A DNA stretch of 64,000 nt from Candidatus Gastranaerophilales bacterium. Its GTDB lineage: Bacteria; Cyanobacteriota; Vampirovibrionia; Gastranaerophilales; Gastranaerophilaceae. The first letter of the stretch is position 1; the number at the start of each line of letters is the position of its first letter. The DNA is taken from the NCBI GenBank assembly GCA_944325005.1, contig CALUYO010000001.1, positions 1-64,000 of the forward strand, in the 5' to 3' direction. The notes under the pieces are model-generated. The model was not told where the DNA came from, did not search any database, and was given only the letters and a program-made list of their open reading frames with translations. Shown in pieces: positions 3,828-44,423 of the stretch. A program made the translations under genes and the position numbers.

Positions 3828-3974
3828 AATACGATTATAACAAATTTTTTAGAATTTGTTTTAAATATTAATCTAATTATAATATTTTCATCTCATGTGA
3901 TGTTCAGCTCCCTTTGAAAAGCTCTGAATATCGTAAATAATAAAAATATAGCAGAAAAAAAGGAGTGGAAGCAT

Positions 3975-6232
3975 ATGCAAAAAGAAGAAGTTAAGAATAT
4001 CGGGGGGGGGGCAATTTAAGGCTTCCCACGTGTATTTTTTGGGGTTTTACGTTAGCAGAAATGATGGTCGTGATGCTCATAATGAGCATAATTTTAGCGG
4101 CTATGGCGCCAGTAATGACCACTCGTAATAAATCAGAGAGTTTATCTCCTTGGCGTTATACAGACGATGGATCAAATGCTTATTATGGGATAGCATCAAG
4201 CCAGGTTGCCATGATAGGTCAGCGCGATTTATCAGAAGATGGCAGTGATGATGCTGCCCGCTTAATACTGAACTCTTCCGATACAAATCCAATCCATTTA
4301 TCTTTTAAACGTGGAACTGCCACCTTAGGTCGTTTGTATATGAACGATAGTAATATAGTATTAGGTAATACTGATATGAACCTGGGAAGCAATACAGGTG
4401 CAAATAATATAGCTATAGGTATGAGTAATATTTTATCTCATAATACAAGCGGCGGAAGTAATATTGGTATAGGTGACGGCGCATTAGCAAACAATACAAG
4501 CGGCACCAGTAATACTGCTTTAGGTACATCTTTAGGTTCGAATACCACAGGCAATGATAATACCGCATTAGGAGATGACAGTATGGTATCCAATAGCACC
4601 GGCAGCAGTAATGTTGCGGTAGGCGTTGATAGTTTGGCCAATTCCAATGGTAGCTGGAACGTCGCAGTTGGAGCTAATTCCTATCATTCCGGCTTAGGCG
4701 GGAGTAATACCATCGTAGGCGGTAATGCTATGTCTTCTAAAGATGGGACTAACAATGTTGCTTTAGGCACACAGGCATTACAGCAGGGTGGCGGTGACGG
4801 TAATATTGCCATTGGAGCCAATGCAAATAATGTTGATATGGAAGGTTTAAAAAATACAATTTCTGTCGGATTTAATTCTCGTGCAACCGGAGAATCATCA
4901 ATCTCTATTGGTTCACCGCTTACGGGTGGTGCTGAGAGTAATACTGCTGCTCAAGCTAAAGATATTGGTTCAGTTGCTATCGGAGCAGGAGCAGTAGCCG
5001 GAAATGGTACAAATGGTAATTACGGTGTAGCTATAGGTTATGCCTCATCTGCTAACGGTAATCTTTCTACAGCAATAGGTTCCCGTACAAAAGCAGTTTC
5101 TGTAAGTACCGCCCTTGGAGAGAGTGCTCAGGCAACAGAAAGTGGTTCAACAGCTCTTGGTTTTGGAGCTGAGGCATCTGGTATGAGTTCACTTGCTGTA
5201 GGCATGGGCGCAACCGCAAGCGAGGATTCTAGTATAGTAATAGGTACAGGAGAGGCAAGTGGTCAGGGCTCAGTTGCTATCGGTACAGGAGCAATAGCCT
5301 CAGGCTTCTATTCATTGGCTATTGGAGGTTTGGGTGTATATTACGAGGGCGGCTGGCTTCCTACAGATACATATTCTACTGAGGCATCCGGTTCAGAATC
5401 TGTTGCTTTGGGGAGTGGTTCCCTTGCAACCGGCGCAAACTCAACAGCATTAGGTTCCTATGCAATAGCTAAAGGCGCAAATAATATAGCTATAGGTAAA
5501 AATGCCTGTCAAAATGTTACGGGCAGTAATAAGATTTGTATAGGAGCAAATTCCGGTCCATCAAGCAGTTCTTCTTGGGCTACAGATAGTGTCGAGCGAA
5601 TATTTATCGGCAGTAAATCTAAATTTAATAATGGTCCTGCCGTCTTAGAAGTTCATAATACTGGAAAAACAGTTTACGCACATGACGGTAGTGAGTATAA
5701 AGCATCGGATTCAACAGTAGTGGTCAATGGTAACTTAATAGTTAAGGGTATTATTTCGTCATTTATTGTAGACCGATATGGAAATAACGTCTCAGGATAT
5801 CGTACCCTGGAAAGGTTCGGAGAAGATGAAAACAATGCCTCATTACGTTACAGTATCGAAAGCGGTAAGGGTTTTGATGAGTATTTTACCAATGGTGGCA
5901 GGGGCTTTTCGTCCGACCGTCGTTTGAAATATGTTGGTAAAGAATTTACTTCCGGTTTAGACAAAATTCGCGACTTAAAAGTATTTAATTATACTTTTAA
6001 AAAAGATGAAAAGAAAACACCTCATGTTAGTGTAATAGCTCAAGATTTGCAAAAAGTCTTTCCTGATGCGGTCAAAAAAGGAGCAGACGGCTTTTTGACC
6101 ATTCGTTTTGAAGATATGTTCTTTGCAATGATCAATGCGATAAAAGAATTGGATGCTAAGTATCAGGCACAGGAAAAACGCATCAATGATCTTGAAAAGC
6201 GAATAGAAAAACTGGAATCACAGATAAAATAG
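3975..6232 (+). CDS. Prepilin-anchored YadA-head/S74 adhesin, frame broken at a G10 run
   Basis: Translation from ATG 3975 (AAAAGGAGTGG upstream) reads MQKEEVKNIGGG and stops at TAA 4017. The long ORF lies in another frame: a class III prepilin signal (WG then FTLAEMMVVM) near 4050, about 25 head-type repeats of the AVGxxSxASGxxSTALG kind (about 4390-5560), and a C-terminal peptidase_S74 intramolecular chaperone (SDRRLK, Ser-Asp at 5912-5917; VIAQDLQ; coiled-coil tail). With 8 or 11 G in the run at 4002-4011, start codon and pilin join into one ORF. Known: S74 domains trimerise and self-cleave; YadA-like heads adhere. Inferred: a pilin-displayed, phase-variable adhesin. Confidence 0.8.
4002..4011 (+). 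repeat. G10 homopolymer run in prepilin leader (locus 1)
   Basis: Ten consecutive G residues lie nine codons after the ATG at 3975. With 10 G the leader frame meets TAA at 4017; 8 or 11 G opens the pilin frame. Likely slipped-strand phase-variation tract. Confidence 0.85.
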
Positions 6233-6316: not shown

Positions 6317-6390
6317 AGATATATTAAATCGCTCTGTTGCCCTATTTGCGTTATTATGCTATACTTCTGATAAGAAGAACGGAGTTAGTT

Positions 6391-7299
6391 ATGAATTTAA
6401 TGCATATATTTACGGATATCCCGATCCTTATTGTAATTTTTACTTTCTTATTTTCAATTATTTATTGTATGAAAAATTATATTTATGTTAGTAAAAATTT
6501 GAAAATTTTTCTTGCATTTATCTCAGGTTTTAAAAAAACAGATTTGAATTTCCGGTTCAAGGAAATAGATGAATGGATGTCCCTTAATCCTTATGTATCT
6601 GCATCCTGGCTGGAATTTAAAAATACTCTTGTCTTTTCCGAATCGATTGCCCTTAAAGGTAAAAATAACGATTTAACGTATAAAGAGGTATCTTCAACTG
6701 TTCAGAATATTCAAACTACTGTTGATCCTATGTATTTCTTTAATGAAGAAACTCTTATAACATCAAAGTTTAATAATAAATTTTTACAAACGGTTCCTAC
6801 AATTCTTACTGGTTTCGGCCCGTTGTTCACATTTTTAAATATTGCAATTGCTTTCGGTAAAATTGACTTTTCATCTCAGGAAAAAACGATTGCATCTGTT
6901 GCCGGCTTGATGTCAAGCATGCAGACTGCTGCACTTGTATCAGTTATTGCTGTAGGTTCATCCCTTTTATTTTTAATGTTTGAAAGAATTAGTTTTCAGC
7001 TTCTTTGTAAAAATCCGCTGTCAAAGTGTGAGGATTTGCTTGGAAAACTATTTGATAATATTTCATCAGAAAAATTCCTTCTTGAACTTTTGAAGGAAAC
7101 TAAGATTCAGAACAATTCCATATCAAATTTGATTACTGCAATGCCTCAGCAGTTTAAAGTGGCTTTAAATTCGGGAATTGCAAGCAACCTTGTTCCTTAT
7201 CTTGAAAATTTAATTTTCGGGATAAATCAGATGAACAAAAATATTAAAGAATTTGCAAAACACGGAGGAAAATCCGACGATGTCGATGACCTATTTTAA
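6391..7299 (+). CDS. MotA/TolQ/ExbB-like proton-channel subunit
   Basis: The start at 6391 (MNLMHIF) has GGAG 7 nt upstream; an upstream in-frame ATG lacks one. The 302-aa protein has an N-terminal membrane helix (about 10-30), a cytoplasmic stretch, and two further helices (VPTILTGFGPLFTFLNIAIAF about 130-155; QTAALVSVIAVGSSLLF about 180-205). It ends in a helical tail. This is the MotA/ExbB arrangement of stator proteins. The next gene, 18 nt on, is a MotB/OmpA-type protein, so they likely form a proton-driven inner-membrane complex. No flagellar, TonB or Zorya C/D/E genes are nearby. Confidence 0.7.
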   Translation: MNLMHIFTDIPILIVIFTFLFSIIYCMKNYIYVSKNLKIFLAFISGFKKTDLNFRFKEIDEWMSLNPYVSASWLEFKNTLVFSESIALKGKNNDLTYKEVSSTVQNIQTTVDPMYFFNEETLITSKFNNKFLQTVPTILTGFGPLFTFLNIAIAFGKIDFSSQEKTIASVAGLMSSMQTAALVSVIAVGSSLLFLMFERISFQLLCKNPLSKCEDLLGKLFDNISSEKFLLELLKETKIQNNSISNLITAMPQQFKVALNSGIASNLVPYLENLIFGINQMNKNIKEFAKHGGKSDDVDDLF

Positions 7300-7317
7300 T
7301 CGTGGAGGAAGCTCCTT

Positions 7318-8019
7318 ATGTCAATAATGATGAGAAAACAGAATAGCAAAGAAGGTGATAATAATATCTTCTGGACAACAATGGCTGACTTGCTTTTAGG
7401 GCTGGCTATTATTTTTATGACGTTGTTTGTTCTTGCCATGACAGGTTTTACACAGCAAAGTCTGGAGCAGAAAAAGCAGCAGATTGAGGTTAATAAAGAA
7501 CTTATTGAAAACCTTAAAAAAGCAAATATTGAAGCTCAGGTTGATCCTATGACAGGAGATATTAAAATTTCTGATCTGGAGCTTTTTGAATTAAACAGCT
7601 TTAATCTCTCTGAAAAAGGAAAAGCTTATCTGGATAAACTTGTTCCGATCTATATAAATACAATTTTTTCCAAAAAAGAGCTTGTAGGCGAAATAGAAAA
7701 TATAATTATTCAGGGGCACACTGACAGTCAGTCTTTTGCCGGTATTAAAAATCCTGACGAACAGTATATGAAAAATATGTCATTGAGTTTGCAGCGTGCA
7801 AATTCTGTTGCGGATTATATTTTTCATACAAATTTCGATAAGCAGTACAGTGACAGGTTGAAAAAAATCCTTGTTGTTGAAGGAAAAAGCTTTTCAGAGC
7901 CAATCCTTGTTAACGGTAAGGAAGATTATAATAAAAGCAGACGTGTTGAAATGCGTTTAAAGGTTAAAAAACTTGATATTACTGAAGTTCTTGTTCATGG
8001 AGTTCAATTTTTAAAATGA
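7318..8019 (+). CDS. MotB/OmpA-type stator protein
   Basis: The 233-aa protein has an N-terminal membrane helix holding the conserved aspartate ([17 protein letters not shown], about 22-42), a short coiled coil, and an OmpA-like peptidoglycan-binding domain ([32 protein letters not shown]). It should bridge the inner membrane and peptidoglycan and work with the MotA-like protein upstream. Shine-Dalgarno GGAGG is near 7304. Its stop overlaps the next start (ATGA), so UPF0210 is translationally coupled. Confidence 0.8.
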
Positions 8020-22011: not shown

Positions 22012-22850
22012 ATGAAAAATGTAAATGCAGTTATACCCTACAATATCGGGGGGGGGGCGTTCTAGGCTTCTCACATCAAATTTTTAGAAATTTTAAATTC
22101 GGTTATAAATATATACAGGACGGATTTACATTGGCGGAAGTTTTGATAACTCTCGGCATAATCGGGATTATCGCGGCGTTAACAATGCCTTCCTTAATAT
22201 CCGGCTATCAGGAAAAAGTTCTTATTTCACAGGCAAAAAGGTCTTTGTCAGTTGTTATGAATGCTATTTCTGCCGCAAGGGCAAAAGAGGGAGTTGAAAA
22301 TAACGGTGAAATTTTTATGTCTTCAAATACTTCAGAGCAAACGGCTGATGCTATTTTTGAAAATATGAAGATAGTCAAGAGATGCAGAGTAAATGATACT
22401 AATTGTTTAAAAGATTACAAAATTAAATATGATAAACCAAAAAATGATGGGTTTGGTAACTATGCAAAACCTTATGATTTTGCATGGATGCCTAGAGCTG
22501 TACTTTCTGACGGTTCAGTAGTTGGAATAGAGCAGATAAATTATTCGGAAGGTAATTGCCTGAATTATTATACGACCTGGGATAAGGATTCGGATGGCAA
22601 TTTTATATTGGATTCTTCCGGTAATAAGGTTAATGAACGTCTGGTAGCTGAAACTGACTGCGGGCATGTTTTATTTGATGTTAACGGCTTGAAAGGCCCT
22701 AATCAATTTGGTGCTGATGCTTATTTGATTTATATTACACCATACAGCTATGTCCAAAGTATCGGCAGTATTAATGATGTTATAAGGACAAATAAACTCA
22801 CTGCGCAAAAATTTGATCAGAATGGAAGCTTTAAAAAAACAGGGGATTAG
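22012..22850 (+). CDS. Prepilin-type protein, frame broken at a G10 run
   Basis: ATG 22012 follows AGAGGAG but reads MKNVNAVIPYNIGGGAF and stops at TAG 22063. The pilin frame opens with G-FTLAEVLITLGIIGIIAALTM near 22122 and runs to 22850. It encodes a minor-pilin/pseudopilin-like ectodomain with paired cysteines (CRVNDTNC) and no recognised adhesive fold. With 8 or 11 G in 22048-22057 the two halves fuse and the leader is 37 residues. A TTG at 22131 could be mistaken for the start, but it lies inside the prepilin helix. Confidence 0.8.
22048..22057 (+). repeat. G10 homopolymer run in prepilin leader (locus 2)
   Basis: Ten G residues lie after AATATC, 12 codons into the leader. The current length leads to TAG at 22063; 8 or 11 G would be in frame. 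Confidence 0.85.
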
Positions 22851-24507: not shown

Positions 24508-26961
24508 ATGAAGAAGATTGATTCCCTTGAATATCGGGGGGGGGGCAGTTTTAAGCCCTGTTTCCGCACGTTTTTGTCCTATACACTTGCGGAAATTGTA
24601 GTAGTAATGTTGATTATCGCTGTTGTTGTAGCAGTGAGTATCGGTATAACAAAAGCGAAATTAGATAATATCATCTCCTATACGTATTATTCAGCGTATT
24701 CGTCCTTACGACAGATATCCACCGAGATGTTAATCAACTGGGATCCGACCGATCCTGAGTATAAGCAGGCTTTAAATGCCTCAGAACATCATTTTGCATT
24801 TAATTTCCCAAATGATCACAGATTTTTTTCAACACTAATCTCTCATACATCCTTTGCGATAAAATTACCTTTTAATAATAAGGTTAAAGCCGGTAGTACC
24901 GTAACAGCATACGGCTGTCCTCAGGCCCAAAGCGGATTTGATGATTTTATGTGGTCTACAGAGTATTATATCGGGGCTAATGGGTGTTATACTGCTATGC
25001 ATAACAGTTATATGAGAGGAGAGACATATGCTGACCTAAAAAAATGTGGTGGAAAGTATCATGGAGCTACAACTTATACTGCGAGTCAGTCTGGTGGAAA
25101 TAGTGGCTGTACATATGACTGTAGTACCGGTCATGTAAATACTAATCTTTGTGGGGCTGGTAGTTCTACTTGTTGCGGAAATTATGTTCTTGATCATTCC
25201 CACGATTGTACTAGTGATCCGGTAATTTTTGACGGTACTATATTAAGTGAGGGGGATAATTATTTAGAGCACTTATATGATGTTGAACTCAAAAATGGTA
25301 AAGTTATAAGTAGTACATTAATGTCCAATAATGTATGTAAGATGCAAATACAATGTGACGATGGATATTATTGGGAAACAGAAGATTCTGTTGCAGGCTT
25401 CCCTATCGGAAGTTGTAAAAAGTGTTATAAAACATGTAAAGATAATTTTACTCTTGACAGTTCAACCTGCAGCTGTGTATGCGAAAAGAAATGTGGTACA
25501 GGTTATAAATTAAATTCATCCACGTGTACTTGTGTCTCTGATGGCGGTTCAAGTTGTACCAAGACCTGTGGCGACGGTTATACGTTAGATAAAAAGAGTT
25601 GCAGTTGTAAATGTACCCGCAGTTGTTCAAGCGGTTACAGTTTAGATAGCAGCAGTTGTACCTGTAAAAAAGATGCCTGTACCAATAAGCCAAGTACTAT
25701 CCCCTGCGGTCAGAGCTGGGACGAGGAGAATTGTAAGTTAACTGGCACAAAAAAGACCTGTGACGATGGTTATAGCCTAGACAGCAGTTGTAATTGTAAG
25801 TGTACCCGTAGTTGTTCCAGCGGTTACAGTTTGGATACAAGCAGCTGTACTTGTAAAAAGGATGAATGTACCAATAAGCCCAGCACTATACCTTGCGGTC
25901 AGAGCTGGGATGCTGACACCTGCAGTTTAACCGGTACTGCAAAGACTTGTGAAGATGGTTATAGTTTAGATAGCGATTGTAATTGTAAGTGTACTCGGAC
26001 CTGTGGCGATGGTTATACTTTAAACAGTAGTACTTGTACCTGTGAGGAAGATGGTTGTCCAGCTCCGGATTATATACCCTGCGGCCAGAGCTGGGACGAG
26101 TCAACCTGTAGTTTAACCGGTACTGCAAAGACTTGTCCTTCGGGTCAACATTTAAACAGCAGCTGTAACTGTGTAAATGATTGTCCGACAGACTTAACCC
26201 CCTGTCAGATCTGCAGTTATAATACCGGTATTGTATCTCAAAACCCATTAATTAATCGTACCTGCAGTGATGAGACATATGAATGGAGTGAAGACCAGTG
26301 TAAATGTATCATCTCACCACGCACGTTACCTCGCAAGGGTATGAACTTCTGTAAGTTGTTTGAGCGTTATGCAAACATCAAAGGCGGCAGTCCTGTATGC
26401 AGCGGCAGTGCAATCTCGACCAACACGACTAATTTCAGCAGTAAAGAACCTGATTTAGTGTTACGTAACGGTTTACTGTTGTACAATATGCATAATGATG
26501 CGATAGAAATTCCTCAGTTGCAGAATAACACTCAGGGTGGCACATATGACGGGGTTCCCAACACTAATACCATGGGTTATATCGTCTATGTAGATATTGA
26601 CGGTGTAAATGGTTCTTCGCAACTCTGGGATGATGTCTATCCATTCTACATCACTTTGTCGGGTAAGATCATTCCCGGCTATGACTTAAACGCAAACCCG
26701 GATGGCAGCGGGGGCGACAGTTCACATCATTTGGCTGTAAGTGTAGAGAATGAGACCTATAACAGCGGCAAGCGCAAGATCAACTGGTTAGCCAAGAGTG
26801 TAAGCTTTAAGGAGGGAGCTTGCTTATCCGGGTATGTAGGAAGTTCAACTCCCTATTGTCGAAGTGGCAGTGCAATCAGTCAATCCGCATCTTGTGACAT
26901 CAACATGCGCGATTCTCTATGTCGCTTGAAGCGTATAAAACCAGTTAGATTTTTCTTCTAA
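24508..26961 (+). CDS. Prepilin-type protein with cysteine-rich repeats, in frame through a G10 run
   Basis: The 817-aa product reads through its ten G residues as RGGG, giving MKKIDSLEYRGGG and then the prepilin helix S-YTLAEIVVVMLIIAVVVAV. Position -1 is Ser, not the usual Gly. From about residue 290 to 575 it has tandem Cys-rich units, (C)xxxCxxGYSLDSSxCxCxC alternating with NKPSTIPCGQSWD blocks. The C-terminal 200 residues are a pilin-like domain shared with gut minor pilins. Secretion through a type IV pilus or T2SS-like machine is expected; function of the repeats (adhesion or stalk) is inferred. Confidence 0.8.
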   Translation: MKKIDSLEYRGGGSFKPCFRTFLSYTLAEIVVVMLIIAVVVAVSIGITKAKLDNIISYTYYSAYSSLRQISTEMLINWDPTDPEYKQALNASEHHFAFNFPNDHRFFSTLISHTSFAIKLPFNNKVKAGSTVTAYGCPQAQSGFDDFMWSTEYYIGANGCYTAMHNSYMRGETYADLKKCGGKYHGATTYTASQSGGNSGCTYDCSTGHVNTNLCGAGSSTCCGNYVLDHSHDCTSDPVIFDGTILSEGDNYLEHLYDVELKNGKVISSTLMSNNVCKMQIQCDDGYYWETEDSVAGFPIGSCKKCYKTCKDNFTLDSSTCSCVCEKKCGTGYKLNSSTCTCVSDGGSSCTKTCGDGYTLDKKSCSCKCTRSCSSGYSLDSSSCTCKKDACTNKPSTIPCGQSWDEENCKLTGTKKTCDDGYSLDSSCNCKCTRSCSSGYSLDTSSCTCKKDECTNKPSTIPCGQSWDADTCSLTGTAKTCEDGYSLDSDCNCKCTRTCGDGYTLNSSTCTCEEDGCPAPDYIPCGQSWDESTCSLTGTAKTCPSGQHLNSSCNCVNDCPTDLTPCQICSYNTGIVSQNPLINRTCSDETYEWSEDQCKCIISPRTLPRKGMNFCKLFERYANIKGGSPVCSGSAISTNTTNFSSKEPDLVLRNGLLLYNMHNDAIEIPQLQNNTQGGTYDGVPNTNTMGYIVYVDIDGVNGSSQLWDDVYPFYITLSGKIIPGYDLNANPDGSGGDSSHHLAVSVENETYNSGKRKINWLAKSVSFKEGACLSGYVGSSTPYCRSGSAISQSASCDINMRDSLCRLKRIKPVRFFF
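24536..24545 (+). repeat. G10 homopolymer run in prepilin leader (locus 3, in frame)
   Basis: Ten G residues follow AATATC as in loci 1 and 2, but the codon phase differs by one base, so here 10 G is the open length. Confidence 0.85.
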
Positions 26962-40428: not shown

Positions 40429-41126
40429 ATGAACAATAGAAATATTTTTAAAAATCTCGGGGGGGGGGCGGACTAGAAGCTCCCAGTAATGCATTTACGC
40501 TTGCTGAAGTTTTAATTACTCTGGGTATAATTGCTGTTGTTGCCGCACTTACTATGCCGGCTTTAATTGCAAATCATCAGAAAAATGTGACTTTAACCCA
40601 ATTAAAAAAGGTATATTCTGTTTTAAATCAGGCTTATAAATTATCCGAAAATGATAACGGCGAGTTTATATACTGGGAAAAGAAGGATGATATAGGGGCT
40701 ACTCCATTTTTTGAAAAATACTGGAAACCGTATTTAACCGGAGCAAACGTGTGTTTGTCATATCAGGAATGTGGTTATTCGGAAGAAAAACCCTGGAAAA
40801 CCCGTAAAGGTGAGCGTAATACTGTTGCAGTTGTTGATGATGCAAATGATACTCGGATTAGTTTCTTTCTTAATGATGGAACATTTGTGTCCTTATCAAG
40901 TCATGTTTATGTAGATTTAAATGGTCCTAAAAAACCTAATTTATGGGGAAGAGATTTTTTTCAATTTACTTATGACGAACGTGGAGTTATGCCGTCATAT
41001 TATACTCTTACTGAAGAATGGGTTAAGCAGCGTTGCAGTAAAAAGAATAACTATGATGCGACTACTTGCTCTGCACGAATAATTATTTATGATAACTGGC
41101 AGATGACAGAAGATTATCCGTGGTAA
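40429..41126 (+). CDS. Prepilin-type protein, frame broken at a G10 run
   Basis: ATG 40429 (GAAAGAGG upstream) reads MNNRNIFKNLGGGAD and stops at TAG 40474. The pilin frame starts with NA-FTLAEVLITLGIIAVVAALTM at about 40488 and runs to 41126, giving a small ectodomain with several cysteines (NVCLSYQECG; RCSKKNNYDATTC). Fusion with 8 or 11 G gives a 21-residue leader. Position -1 is Ala rather than Gly. Same fold class as locus 2, and shorter. Confidence 0.8.
40459..40468 (+). repeat. G10 homopolymer run in prepilin leader (locus 4)
   Basis: Ten G residues after AATCTC. Current length closes the frame at TAG 40474; 8 or 11 G opens it. Confidence 0.85.
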
Positions 41127-41306: not shown

Positions 41307-44300
41307 TTAATTTTCAATCAAAACTCTGTCTAAGCAGGCTTTTGGAGAATAGTGCCATTCGCGGAAGGTGATGCGTTTGACTTTGAAGCCTGAACGTTCA
41401 ATTATTGCCTGTTTTTTCATATTTGAGATTTTGTCGCCGTTTTTGTCTTCAAGCCCGTCTATTTCAAGTACAAACTTGTCATCTACAAGCAAATCCGCGC
41501 TCAAGCCGGCAATTTCAGCTCCTGCTATGACTTTATGCCCGAGTTCTCTGATTTTTTCTGCAACTTCACGTTCAAGCGGATTTTTATAGATATTTTCGTC
41601 TATTTCACCTGAAAGCATTGCCTGTTTGCGGTCTTGATATAACTGCATATATGATACGTAATTTCTGAAATGACCTTCAGGGAGTTCGCGCGGGTTGCGT
41701 GATATGAAGTTGATAACTTTATTTCTTCCGCGTGTAATTGCTACGTTAAACAGGTTTGGTTTTTGCATAAACATAAGGCTTTGTGTATAGCTGTTATCTG
41801 CGATAGCCCATGAAATCATCATGATATCGCGTTCATCTCCCTGGAATGTGTGTGCGGTACCGATTTCTATCTGGTGTTTCTTTATCATATAGTCTGAAAG
41901 AACTTTTGAAACAGAAATTTTCAACTGTTCAACCTGAGCTCTGAAAGGTGATATTATGCCGACAGAAACAGGGTTATCCGGGTTTTGTCTTTCGTCTTCT
42001 ATAATTATTTCGTGTAATCTTTTTACAAGTGCTTCAATTTCAGGAAGATTTCTTGTCGCGTCAAAGTCAACTTTTCCGTCAAGAACTTCGACAAGCTCAA
42101 GAACTTTTTCATCTGTTTTGTCTTTTCTCATAATACGAATTCTGTCATTGTAAAATTCGTGATTTGAGAAGTTGATTATTGGCGGAAGGCTCCTGAAATG
42201 TTCATCAAGCATAACGGAATTCATAGAATAATAATCTGCTAAATCAAACATTGAATTTGTTCTGAAACGCCAGATTAGCTGGTATTTGTCAGGAATTCCA
42301 TACTGGCTTAAGAAAGACTGTTCTTTAGCTTTTTCAAGGAAGGATAAATGAGGAAGCTGTTTGTCATCTCCTACGATTACGGCGCGTTTTGCTCTGAATA
42401 ATATCGGGAAACAGCTTGCGATATCGCATTGTGAAGCTTCGTCAATAATTGCAACATCAAACATCCCCGGTTTTAACGGCAATGAATCAGATACTGCATA
42501 AGTTGTGACGCACCAACAGGGGAAGGCTTCCAACAATGGTTTAAAATCTTCTTCTTCCAGAATATTGGTTTGCAGGCGTTTTCTGTTTGTAACAAGGGAT
42601 TTTGCATGAACTTTTAATCTTCTGCGTTTGTTCTCATCGCGTAAAAGTCCTTTCAAAGCTTCGCGGCGTTTGTTTTTCAAAATATTCGTTGCAAGAGTTT
42701 TTTGCTTGCGTTTCATTGTTCTTATTTGTTCCGAAAGCATGTGCAGATTGCCTGTTTTTTGAATATCTGCTTCGATTTTTCTCAAAGACCATTCTATATT
42801 GGCAAAATCCAGCTCCTGTTTTAACCTTCCAAGATTTTCGTAATTTACTTCAAAATCTTTGAGGTTAAGTATTTTTTTGAGCTGGCCGAGGCTTGTAAAG
42901 TTTGCAATTTTAGATATAAAGCCCGCTTTTTCCATATTGTGTTCAAGAACTTTTATTATCCCTGAAACAATCTCAATTTCACCTTTTTTAAGACTTTTTT
43001 TGATAAATTCTTTTTTCCCGAGAACTTTTTCCTGTTCTTCAACCTCAAGCAATTTGTCGTGCCAGTCTTTTTCCAGTTTAATTATGGTTTCTGACTTAAC
43101 TTCCATGCTTTTAAGCATGTCAAGGTGGTCTTTCATGTCTTTTGTGTCAACAAGAAGAATATCTTCGACACCTTCATCCAGGTCGCTGTTTTGGGAAAGA
43201 AGGTTGTTTAATTCTTCGCTGAGCTGTCTTTGATAATTCAAGCGTCCCGCACGGAGTGCCATATGAGATGCTCCTAAATCGTTTAAGCGTTCTGCAACAA
43301 CATCAACTGCCTTATCCATACGTGAAGCAACAAGAACTGTCTTGCCGTTTGCAACAAGGTGGGCGACGAGGTTTACTATTGTCTGAGATTTACCTGTTCC
43401 CGGAGGTCCCTGAACTGCGACAAATTTGTTGTTGTCAATATTTTTGATAACCTGAAGCTGGCTGTCACTCAATGAAAGCGGGGTTATGGGGTAAAAATCC
43501 GTAATTTTATTCATATCTTTAAGCGGTACGGATTTTTCTTTACTTTGCGCGTATTCTTCGTTGATTATGCTTAAAGCTGTTTCTCTGTAAATCCCTGACG
43601 GCTTTTCCGCAATTTGTGTTAATTCATGCAAAACACCGGCTGTTACAGAGGGGCGTTTGGTTAAGATAATTGCACTTTGATAAGTTACGGCAATTTTTTC
43701 TAATTTAACTTTTTGTTTTTCCTGTTCTGTTTCTTCTTCAATGATTTCGTCCAGATTTTCGCCGTCAATTTTTTCTTTGTAAAAATCTTTTGCCTTTGTT
43801 ATATTGTCATCTTCTTTGTAATCTCCGAGATTTTCTGCAATTTCAATTTCAGGCACAAGGGATTTCAAAGTTGTCAGAAAAATGTTTAATTTGTCCTGAG
43901 TAATCGGCAAGTCCGGAACAACATCAAGTATTCCTTCAAGAAGCAGATCAACTTCATCCTCGTCATCATTTTTTCGCATTAAAGCTGCAAGCGCACCTGT
44001 ATTAAGCGACAAAACTTCATCAAGAGGAAGGCAGTTTATATTTACCCCGTTGCGCTCAAGTTTACAGGGCATATATAAAAGCGGGGTCAGGAATTCATTA
44101 TGTTTTTTTGATTTTGAGCTTTTGCCGACTAAAAAAAGGTAGCCGTAGATAAGGTATTTGTCTTTTTGCCCCAAATCACTCTGTATCATTAATTCAGTAA
44201 GCTTCGGGTCGCTTCCGTCAAGTGAAATATATTCAGCGCCTGTAGAAAACAGCTGTTCATCCCCTTTAAGGAAAATCCATTTGTTATCTTTATCGCCTTT

Positions 44301-44423
44301 CAGGTTTCTGAAAGTTGAGCTTTTAACTTCTTCTCTGACACAGTCGTGCAGATACTGGCTTAATTTTTTTATAAAACTGTTATTAAATGCTGAATTTATT
44401 GCTCGTGAAGCTTCCTGTAGCAT
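41307..44423 (-). CDS. SF1 helicase (COG1112-like) with C-terminal nuclease-like domain
   Basis: The 1038-aa protein has an N-terminal region of unknown fold, a UPF1/COG1112-type helicase with Walker A (VQGPPGTGKSQT), DEASQ box (AIIDEASQCD), motif III (VGDDKQLPH) and C-terminal motifs (GTAHTFQGDERD; VAITRGRNKV). A PD-(D/E)xK-like end follows (SADLLVDDKFVLEIDG, KKQAIIERSG). It probably unwinds and cuts nucleic acid. It stands alone between a prepilin and the CCA gene, so a defence role is possible but not shown. Confidence 0.8.
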   Translation of the reverse strand: MLQEASRAINSAFNNSFIKKLSQYLHDCVREEVKSSTFRNLKGDKDNKWIFLKGDEQLFSTGAEYISLDGSDPKLTELMIQSDLGQKDKYLIYGYLFLVGKSSKSKKHNEFLTPLLYMPCKLERNGVNINCLPLDEVLSLNTGALAALMRKNDDEDEVDLLLEGILDVVPDLPITQDKLNIFLTTLKSLVPEIEIAENLGDYKEDDNITKAKDFYKEKIDGENLDEIIEEETEQEKQKVKLEKIAVTYQSAIILTKRPSVTAGVLHELTQIAEKPSGIYRETALSIINEEYAQSKEKSVPLKDMNKITDFYPITPLSLSDSQLQVIKNIDNNKFVAVQGPPGTGKSQTIVNLVAHLVANGKTVLVASRMDKAVDVVAERLNDLGASHMALRAGRLNYQRQLSEELNNLLSQNSDLDEGVEDILLVDTKDMKDHLDMLKSMEVKSETIIKLEKDWHDKLLEVEEQEKVLGKKEFIKKSLKKGEIEIVSGIIKVLEHNMEKAGFISKIANFTSLGQLKKILNLKDFEVNYENLGRLKQELDFANIEWSLRKIEADIQKTGNLHMLSEQIRTMKRKQKTLATNILKNKRREALKGLLRDENKRRRLKVHAKSLVTNRKRLQTNILEEEDFKPLLEAFPCWCVTTYAVSDSLPLKPGMFDVAIIDEASQCDIASCFPILFRAKRAVIVGDDKQLPHLSFLEKAKEQSFLSQYGIPDKYQLIWRFRTNSMFDLADYYSMNSVMLDEHFRSLPPIINFSNHEFYNDRIRIMRKDKTDEKVLELVEVLDGKVDFDATRNLPEIEALVKRLHEIIIEDERQNPDNPVSVGIISPFRAQVEQLKISVSKVLSDYMIKKHQIEIGTAHTFQGDERDIMMISWAIADNSYTQSLMFMQKPNLFNVAITRGRNKVINFISRNPRELPEGHFRNYVSYMQLYQDRKQAMLSGEIDENIYKNPLEREVAEKIRELGHKVIAGAEIAGLSADLLVDDKFVLEIDGLEDKNGDKISNMKKQAIIERSGFKVKRITFREWHYSPKACLDRVLIEN

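Follow-up and report, generated by a model that had tools for sequence, protein, structure and literature searches.

We identified a gene for a chimeric adhesin in a 64,000-nucleotide stretch of DNA from Candidatus Gastranaerophilales (the window) that is probably a contingency locus. It belongs to a group of about 90 pilin-type genes whose resting state is OFF and of which a few would be tried out at any one time. A run of ten guanines (G10, 4002-4011) sits between its start codon, ATG 3975, and the prepilin cleavage site, and this long homopolymer in the 5' coding region sets the start and the body of the gene in different frames, an arrangement typical of slipped-strand contingency loci. 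A sequence-only reading of this DNA had run the open reading frame from 3975 and overlooked the main feature of the locus, namely its poly-G out-of-frame state and its membership of a genome-wide set. At G10, ATG 3975 is out of frame and its product ends at TAA 4017-4019 as a peptide of 14 residues. When lengths from 6 to 15 were tested, only 8, 11, or 14 G opened the gene from 3975, giving 751 to 753 amino acids, and the ORF called mechanically starts at ATG 4061, inside the helix and without the cleavage site. Matches to G8 number 12 in the 64-kb window, compared with 0.25 expected. The features of the chimera gene and of the other tract-bearing genes are collected in Table 1.

Table 1. Positions in the window of the chimera gene, its parts, and the other tract-bearing prepilin genes.
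Feature	Position	Strand	Basis
Shine-Dalgarno AGGAG of the out-of-frame start	3961-3965	+	sequence
Reading frame at G10, ATG to TAA, OFF product MQKEEVKNIGGGAI	3975-4019	+	frame analysis
Chimeric adhesin open frame, P0001, 744 aa	3998-6232	+	ORF translation
G10 homopolymer tract, proposed phase switch, ON at 8, 11 or 14	4002-4011	+	frame test
Predicted prepilin peptidase site G^F, E at +5	4043-4048	+	TIGR02532, N_methyl
Hydrophobic prepilin helix, mature residues 1-25	4046-4120	+	AF2 helix 4-25
Low-confidence linker, mature residues 21-62, without pilin core	4106-4231	+	pLDDT <50
YadA-like beta-roll head, about 23 turns, mature residues 122-500	4409-5545	+	Pfam, AF2, Foldseek, phmmer
Peptidase_S74, predicted intramolecular chaperone, S639/K644 in SDRRLK	5912-6076	+	Pfam; invariant Ser/Lys
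C-terminal coiled coil	6107-6226	+	AF2 helix 688-727
Second tract-bearing prepilin gene, G10 22048-22057 OFF, body from 22125	22012-22850	+	
Third tract-bearing prepilin-like gene, Cys-rich repeats, G10 24536-24545 in frame (ON)	24508-26961	+	
Fourth tract-bearing prepilin gene, G10 40459-40468 OFF, body from 40494	40429-41126	+	

The single frame at 3998-6232 carries FTLAEMMVVMLIMSIILAAMAP, YadA-head repeats, Peptidase_S74, and a C-terminal coiled coil. The joining of a prepilin anchor, a YadA-like head, and S74 in a single protein, as first read from the letters, is real: profile searches confirm it and the predicted fold confirms the head. The search of the three regions that had been proposed with that reading placed TIGR02532, YadA_head, and Peptidase_S74 above their cut-offs and N_methyl just below in hmmscan. 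The prepilin-type signal, WG^FTLAEMMVVMLIM, scored 19.7 bits against NCBIfam TIGR02532 (cut-off 16.3) and, with hmmscan, 20.6 bits against Pfam N_methyl, just under the cut-off of 21.2; in the genome search, its N_methyl score was 24.8 bits, above the cut-off. Pfam YadA_head matches the chimera in seven stretches (1.3e-16), and Peptidase_S74 matches residues 639-693 (1.5e-14, 54.5 bits against a curated cut-off of 22). An alignment of 25 full-length members from Gastranaerophilales, including two of the window's genome, retains the prepilin signal and SDxRLK throughout. The S74 serine and the lysine five residues on (mature S623 and K628), which correspond to the dyad of MYRF, are invariant in it.

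The structure of the chimera was predicted with AF2 as a monomer. The model has 23 short strands at even spacing, in line with the roughly 25 repeats counted by eye, and pLDDT exceeds 90 across most of mature residues 270-500 of the beta-roll. Foldseek related this roll to the heads of the trimeric autotransporter adhesins BpaC and YadA (7o23, 8e-9, and 3s6l), and phmmer searches with the head agreed. The helix at 688-727 bears out the coiled-coil tail of the sequence-only reading, and the S74 domain, modeled as a monomer, was poorly predicted. That reading had also tied its proposal to head repeats that match YadA-like models and to a pilin-like core behind the N-terminal helix; the repeats do match, and the core was not found. 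In the AF2 model, the pilin alpha/beta core after a long alpha1 helix is absent, and a short helix (4-25) is followed by a linker and the beta-roll. An ordinary paralog at 22125-22847 is unlike the chimera in this respect, its model having a 53-residue helix and a beta domain, for which Foldseek returned no PDB match. No anchor family corresponding to a C-terminal YadA membrane anchor barrel appeared in the Pfam scan of the chimera.

The missing pilin core, together with the poor fit of a three-helix trimer to an ordinary pilus shaft, is consistent with a chimera that is not displayed and stays anchored in the inner membrane, the switch mattering for another reason. We regard this as unlikely, although it is the most serious of the alternatives, given that the prepilin signal has E at +5, that type IV pilus ATPases (PilB/PilT-type) are present in the genome, and that a large head of the trimeric autotransporter adhesin (TAA) type is typical of surface adhesins. 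With these ATPases present, a pilus or T2SS-like machine might assemble the chimera. The genes pilB, pilC, pilT, and pilD have been reported for a termite-gut relative (PMC5877343).

We favor slipped-strand phase variation as the explanation for the state of this gene. Slippage of the leader G10 would shift the run between 10 (OFF, the 14-residue peptide) and 11 (ON), and ON cells would make a 752-residue preprotein that is inserted via its prepilin signal. Prepilin peptidase would then remove the leader, including the tract-encoded glycines, leaving a mature protein that bears the YadA-like head and is probably trimeric, while the C-terminal S74 domain would aid folding and then cut itself off. 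As the tract-coded Gly or Pro lies in a removable leader, every ON length would give the same mature protein. With about 90 tract-bearing pilin-type genes resting OFF, a few would be sampled at a time. The architecture, the tract, the frames, the genome-wide set, and the strand polarity are read directly from the sequence. That tracts slip in living cells, that the leader is removed, that the type IV pilus machine brings the chimera to the surface, and that it mediates adhesion are inferred, as are the self-cleavage of S74 and the trimerization of the chimera.

Relatives of the chimera were sought by scanning GTDB genomes with an alignment of three paralogs, and 84 were found, the full-length matches falling nearly all in Candidatus Gastranaerophilales records. 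Tract-type chimeras in other species occur in both states, with 10 or 11 G. The window's genome holds two more copies, one cut by a contig end and one at C3:33438-35612 that is in frame and has no tract; given this tract-free paralog, the switch may tune dosage rather than presence. A promoter-like TTGACTATTAATGC..TATAATATAA lies upstream of tract-free chimeras (L174, L179, L181, L185, L186, L191, and the C3 copy) and is not seen in tract-bearing copies. Constitutive and switched versions of the chimera apparently coexist.

The chimera gene belongs to a large set. The window's genome has 100 runs of at least 10 G. A run of this kind separates the start codon from the motif in 89 of its 119 prepilin-motif matches and is missing from the other 30. 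Among the 99 tracts read, 90 are 10 long, seven are 11, one is 12, and one is 14, all being consensus lengths of assemblies. Run counts fall to zero at 7 and rise again at 10: in 718 kb of strand-assigned sequence, G runs of 3, 4, 5, 6, and 7 number 2796, 568, 87, 10, and 0, and runs of 10 number 60. Prepilin genes with an assignable start are OFF in 79 of 85 cases, although frames are partly inherited by duplication and the excess does not represent 85 independent events; the uniformity of the OFF frame could itself reflect such inheritance. Four of the five prepilin genes with length 11 are ON, and leaders that are the same around the tract carry 11 G at C3:193122 and 10 G at C3:210053. Consensus lengths are pinned at 10, more narrowly than in Campylobacter, where tract lengths spread from 7 to 15 (PMC6321876), a point that weighs against phase variation.

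Such tracts are also found elsewhere in the order. In the window's genus, tracts occur in 31 of 33 genomes, with up to 176 in one, and in the sample of the order, they occur in 210 of 286. The number of prepilins tracks the number of tracts: genomes with 1, 0, 0, 10, 0, and 0 tracts have 9, 17, 23, 25, 17, and 11 prepilins, and those with 176, 88, and 56 tracts have at least 149, 90, and 108. The frame pattern of the window's genome is repeated in two further species. In G060, which belongs to a different genus, all 24 prepilins with length 10 are OFF and six of seven with length 11 are ON. Three genomes of the same genus (G002, G003, and G004) have almost no tracts, and some of those they have are at contig ends; this near-absence may be assembly breakage, not biology.

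Additional observations concern other genes in the window and genome. L143 and L147, relatives of the gene at 24508-26961, are OFF at G10 because their leader is 2 nt longer. Directly 3' of the chimera (6337-8019, plus strand) lies a pair resembling ZorA, which is short at 320 aa, and ZorB (model match 5e-53), with no ZorC, ZorD, or ZorE adjoining. An SF1 helicase whose C-terminal part is a nuclease region of MTES_1575 type (41307-44423, minus strand) resembles helicases of the anti-phage systems ProA, Hhe, and Mokosh. G10 tracts also occur outside prepilins, at L051 (C2:7612), L052 (C2:17035), and L121 (C5:42578), some near the C-terminus, in genes that read as an epimerase, a polysaccharide pyruvyl transferase-like protein, and a glycosyltransferase-like protein, which suggests phase-variable glycans.

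The G runs lie on the same strand along whole contigs. Neighboring tracts are alike in 79 of 81 pairs in the window's genome, in 67 of 68 in G001, and in 63 of 66 in G060, compared with 28 of 56 in genus g20. Fifty-eight of the tract-bearing prepilin genes read G10 and 31 read C10, and on contig C5, with eight minus-strand and five plus-strand prepilin genes, all 13 tracts are nonetheless on the plus strand. The G strand follows replication, not gene direction. When GC skew was regressed on coding balance and tract polarity in 42 chunks of at most 20 kb, the polarity term was 0.036 ± 0.003, which puts the G run on the G-rich strand; "leading" is assigned by GC skew, the G-rich strand being leading by convention. 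None of 40 chunks of 20 kb holds both orientations. A tree of 80 pilin bodies needs at least five changes between G and C reading, most simply 20, and related pilins on opposite strands carry opposite leaders, as in L045 (C11) and L148 (G10), whose bodies are 63% identical. In genus g20 (G138), prepilin leaders carry G10 or G11 and ten of ten read G; as these tracts are gene-oriented without polarity, polarity belongs to certain genera rather than to poly-G tracts generally. In G061 (genus g8), neighboring C-flanked tracts are alike in 14 of 15 cases and A/T-flanked tracts in three of seven, so that the latter seem not to be strand-polar.

Candidates for the cause of the polarity are orientation-dependent slippage at the fork or a KOPS-like constraint. 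We tentatively propose, with a little less than even confidence, that the tracts are replication-oriented elements whose G run would have to lie exposed on one replication strand, where the fork or a dedicated factor would hold the length at 10 (OFF) and occasionally produce 11 (ON), that a few of the roughly 90 pilin-type proteins would be sampled per cell, and that genes that swap strands would exchange their leader for one with the complementary run. One could also suppose that the DNA is not switched at all and that programmed -1 ribosomal frameshifting or transcriptional slippage on G10 or C10 yields a basal level of full-length protein from every gene, a function that would keep the length at 10. 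G runs may act as -1 slippery sites, and the length and the needed shift are almost always the same. We nevertheless consider this improbable: length and offset do not differ between mRNAs with G10 and those with C10 (31 genes have C10), and an RNA mechanism would not favor both equally; the restriction of G runs to one replication strand points to DNA; and both G000 and G060 contain in-frame versions of length 11.

Alternatively, the polarity might be imposed by a DNA translocase such as FtsK that is oriented by G runs, only one orientation being tolerated. KOPS are themselves rich in G and, on the leading strand, face from the origin toward the terminus, and the tracts share this orientation and switch it at terminus-like points. 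Such a constraint has a low probability in our view, as the tracts are found almost only in pilin leaders rather than scattered as genome marks, and genus g20 tolerates both orientations. It is very unlikely that the polarity reflects just the chromosome's general GC skew or its gene-strand bias. Leading strands are G-rich, and runs of 3-6 are mildly skewed (1.15 to about 3), but runs of at least 8 are divided 74:0 between the strands, prepilin genes occur on both strands within single contigs (C5), and g20 has tracts without polarity. The idea that the tract is an assembly or sequencing artefact, with a true length of 11 and genes in frame, draws on the error-prone nature of homopolymers and on data that are consensus assemblies, and it is largely refuted and scarcely credible, since a single assembly contains both 10 and 11 behind the same leader, assemblies made independently in different projects also show 10, and an artefact would not be strand-polar.

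Several further ideas about the tracts were not retained. Templating by a reverse transcriptase does not fit G060, which is polar yet has no RVT_1 match, and an origin at dnaA fails because the polarity does not switch at that gene (C4:144.5 kb). A 28-bp conserved DNA element surrounding the tract was not adopted, as genus g7 lacks the AGCT enrichment and the downstream motif is partly the OFF-frame stop codon. A hairpin between the Shine-Dalgarno sequence and CTCCT 3' of the tract is possible in some G-reading genes and lacking in C-reading genes. In the window's genus (L036-L167, L270-L289), AGCT is overrepresented about 10 nt 3' of the G run, in both gene orientations and also in non-pilin genes, and is absent in G060.

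Gastranaerophilales are common gut bacteria and mostly uncultured. About 90 OFF-resting pilin-type genes would make a phasome of large size, exceeding the 5-81 genes per strain reported for Campylobacter (PMC6321876). Such a repertoire would also account for the diverse surface maintained by a small genome. The presence of polarity in two genera and its absence in a third with tract-bearing pilins makes any dependence of slippage on the leading or lagging strand directly testable on natural loci. No paper describing this system was found in a literature search that covered journals outside subscription. Like the poly-G contingency loci of Campylobacter and Neisseria, the tracts are coding homopolymers whose frame sets ON or OFF, with surface targets that include glycan genes; unlike them, they involve about 90 pilin-type targets in 2 Mb, with the length pinned at 10, OFF as the resting state, and a G strand that follows replication, such that 31 of 89 genes read poly-C. 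The chimera shares the left-handed beta-roll head repeats of trimeric autotransporter adhesins such as YadA, BpaC, and BoaA, but no YadA anchor beta-barrel was found in it, and its N-terminus has a prepilin signal and its C-terminus S74. Similarly, phage endosialidase tail spikes and MYRF carry a C-terminal S74 with SDxRxK and a coiled coil, whereas here S74 is on a prepilin-anchored bacterial adhesin rather than a phage spike or a transcription factor. Antigenic variation of pilE in Neisseria gonorrhoeae also provides stochastic variation of a pilus subunit from a large repertoire; the gonococcus relies on gene conversion into a single expression locus that has a guanine quartet element, whereas each gene here has its own start, ribosome site, and tract.
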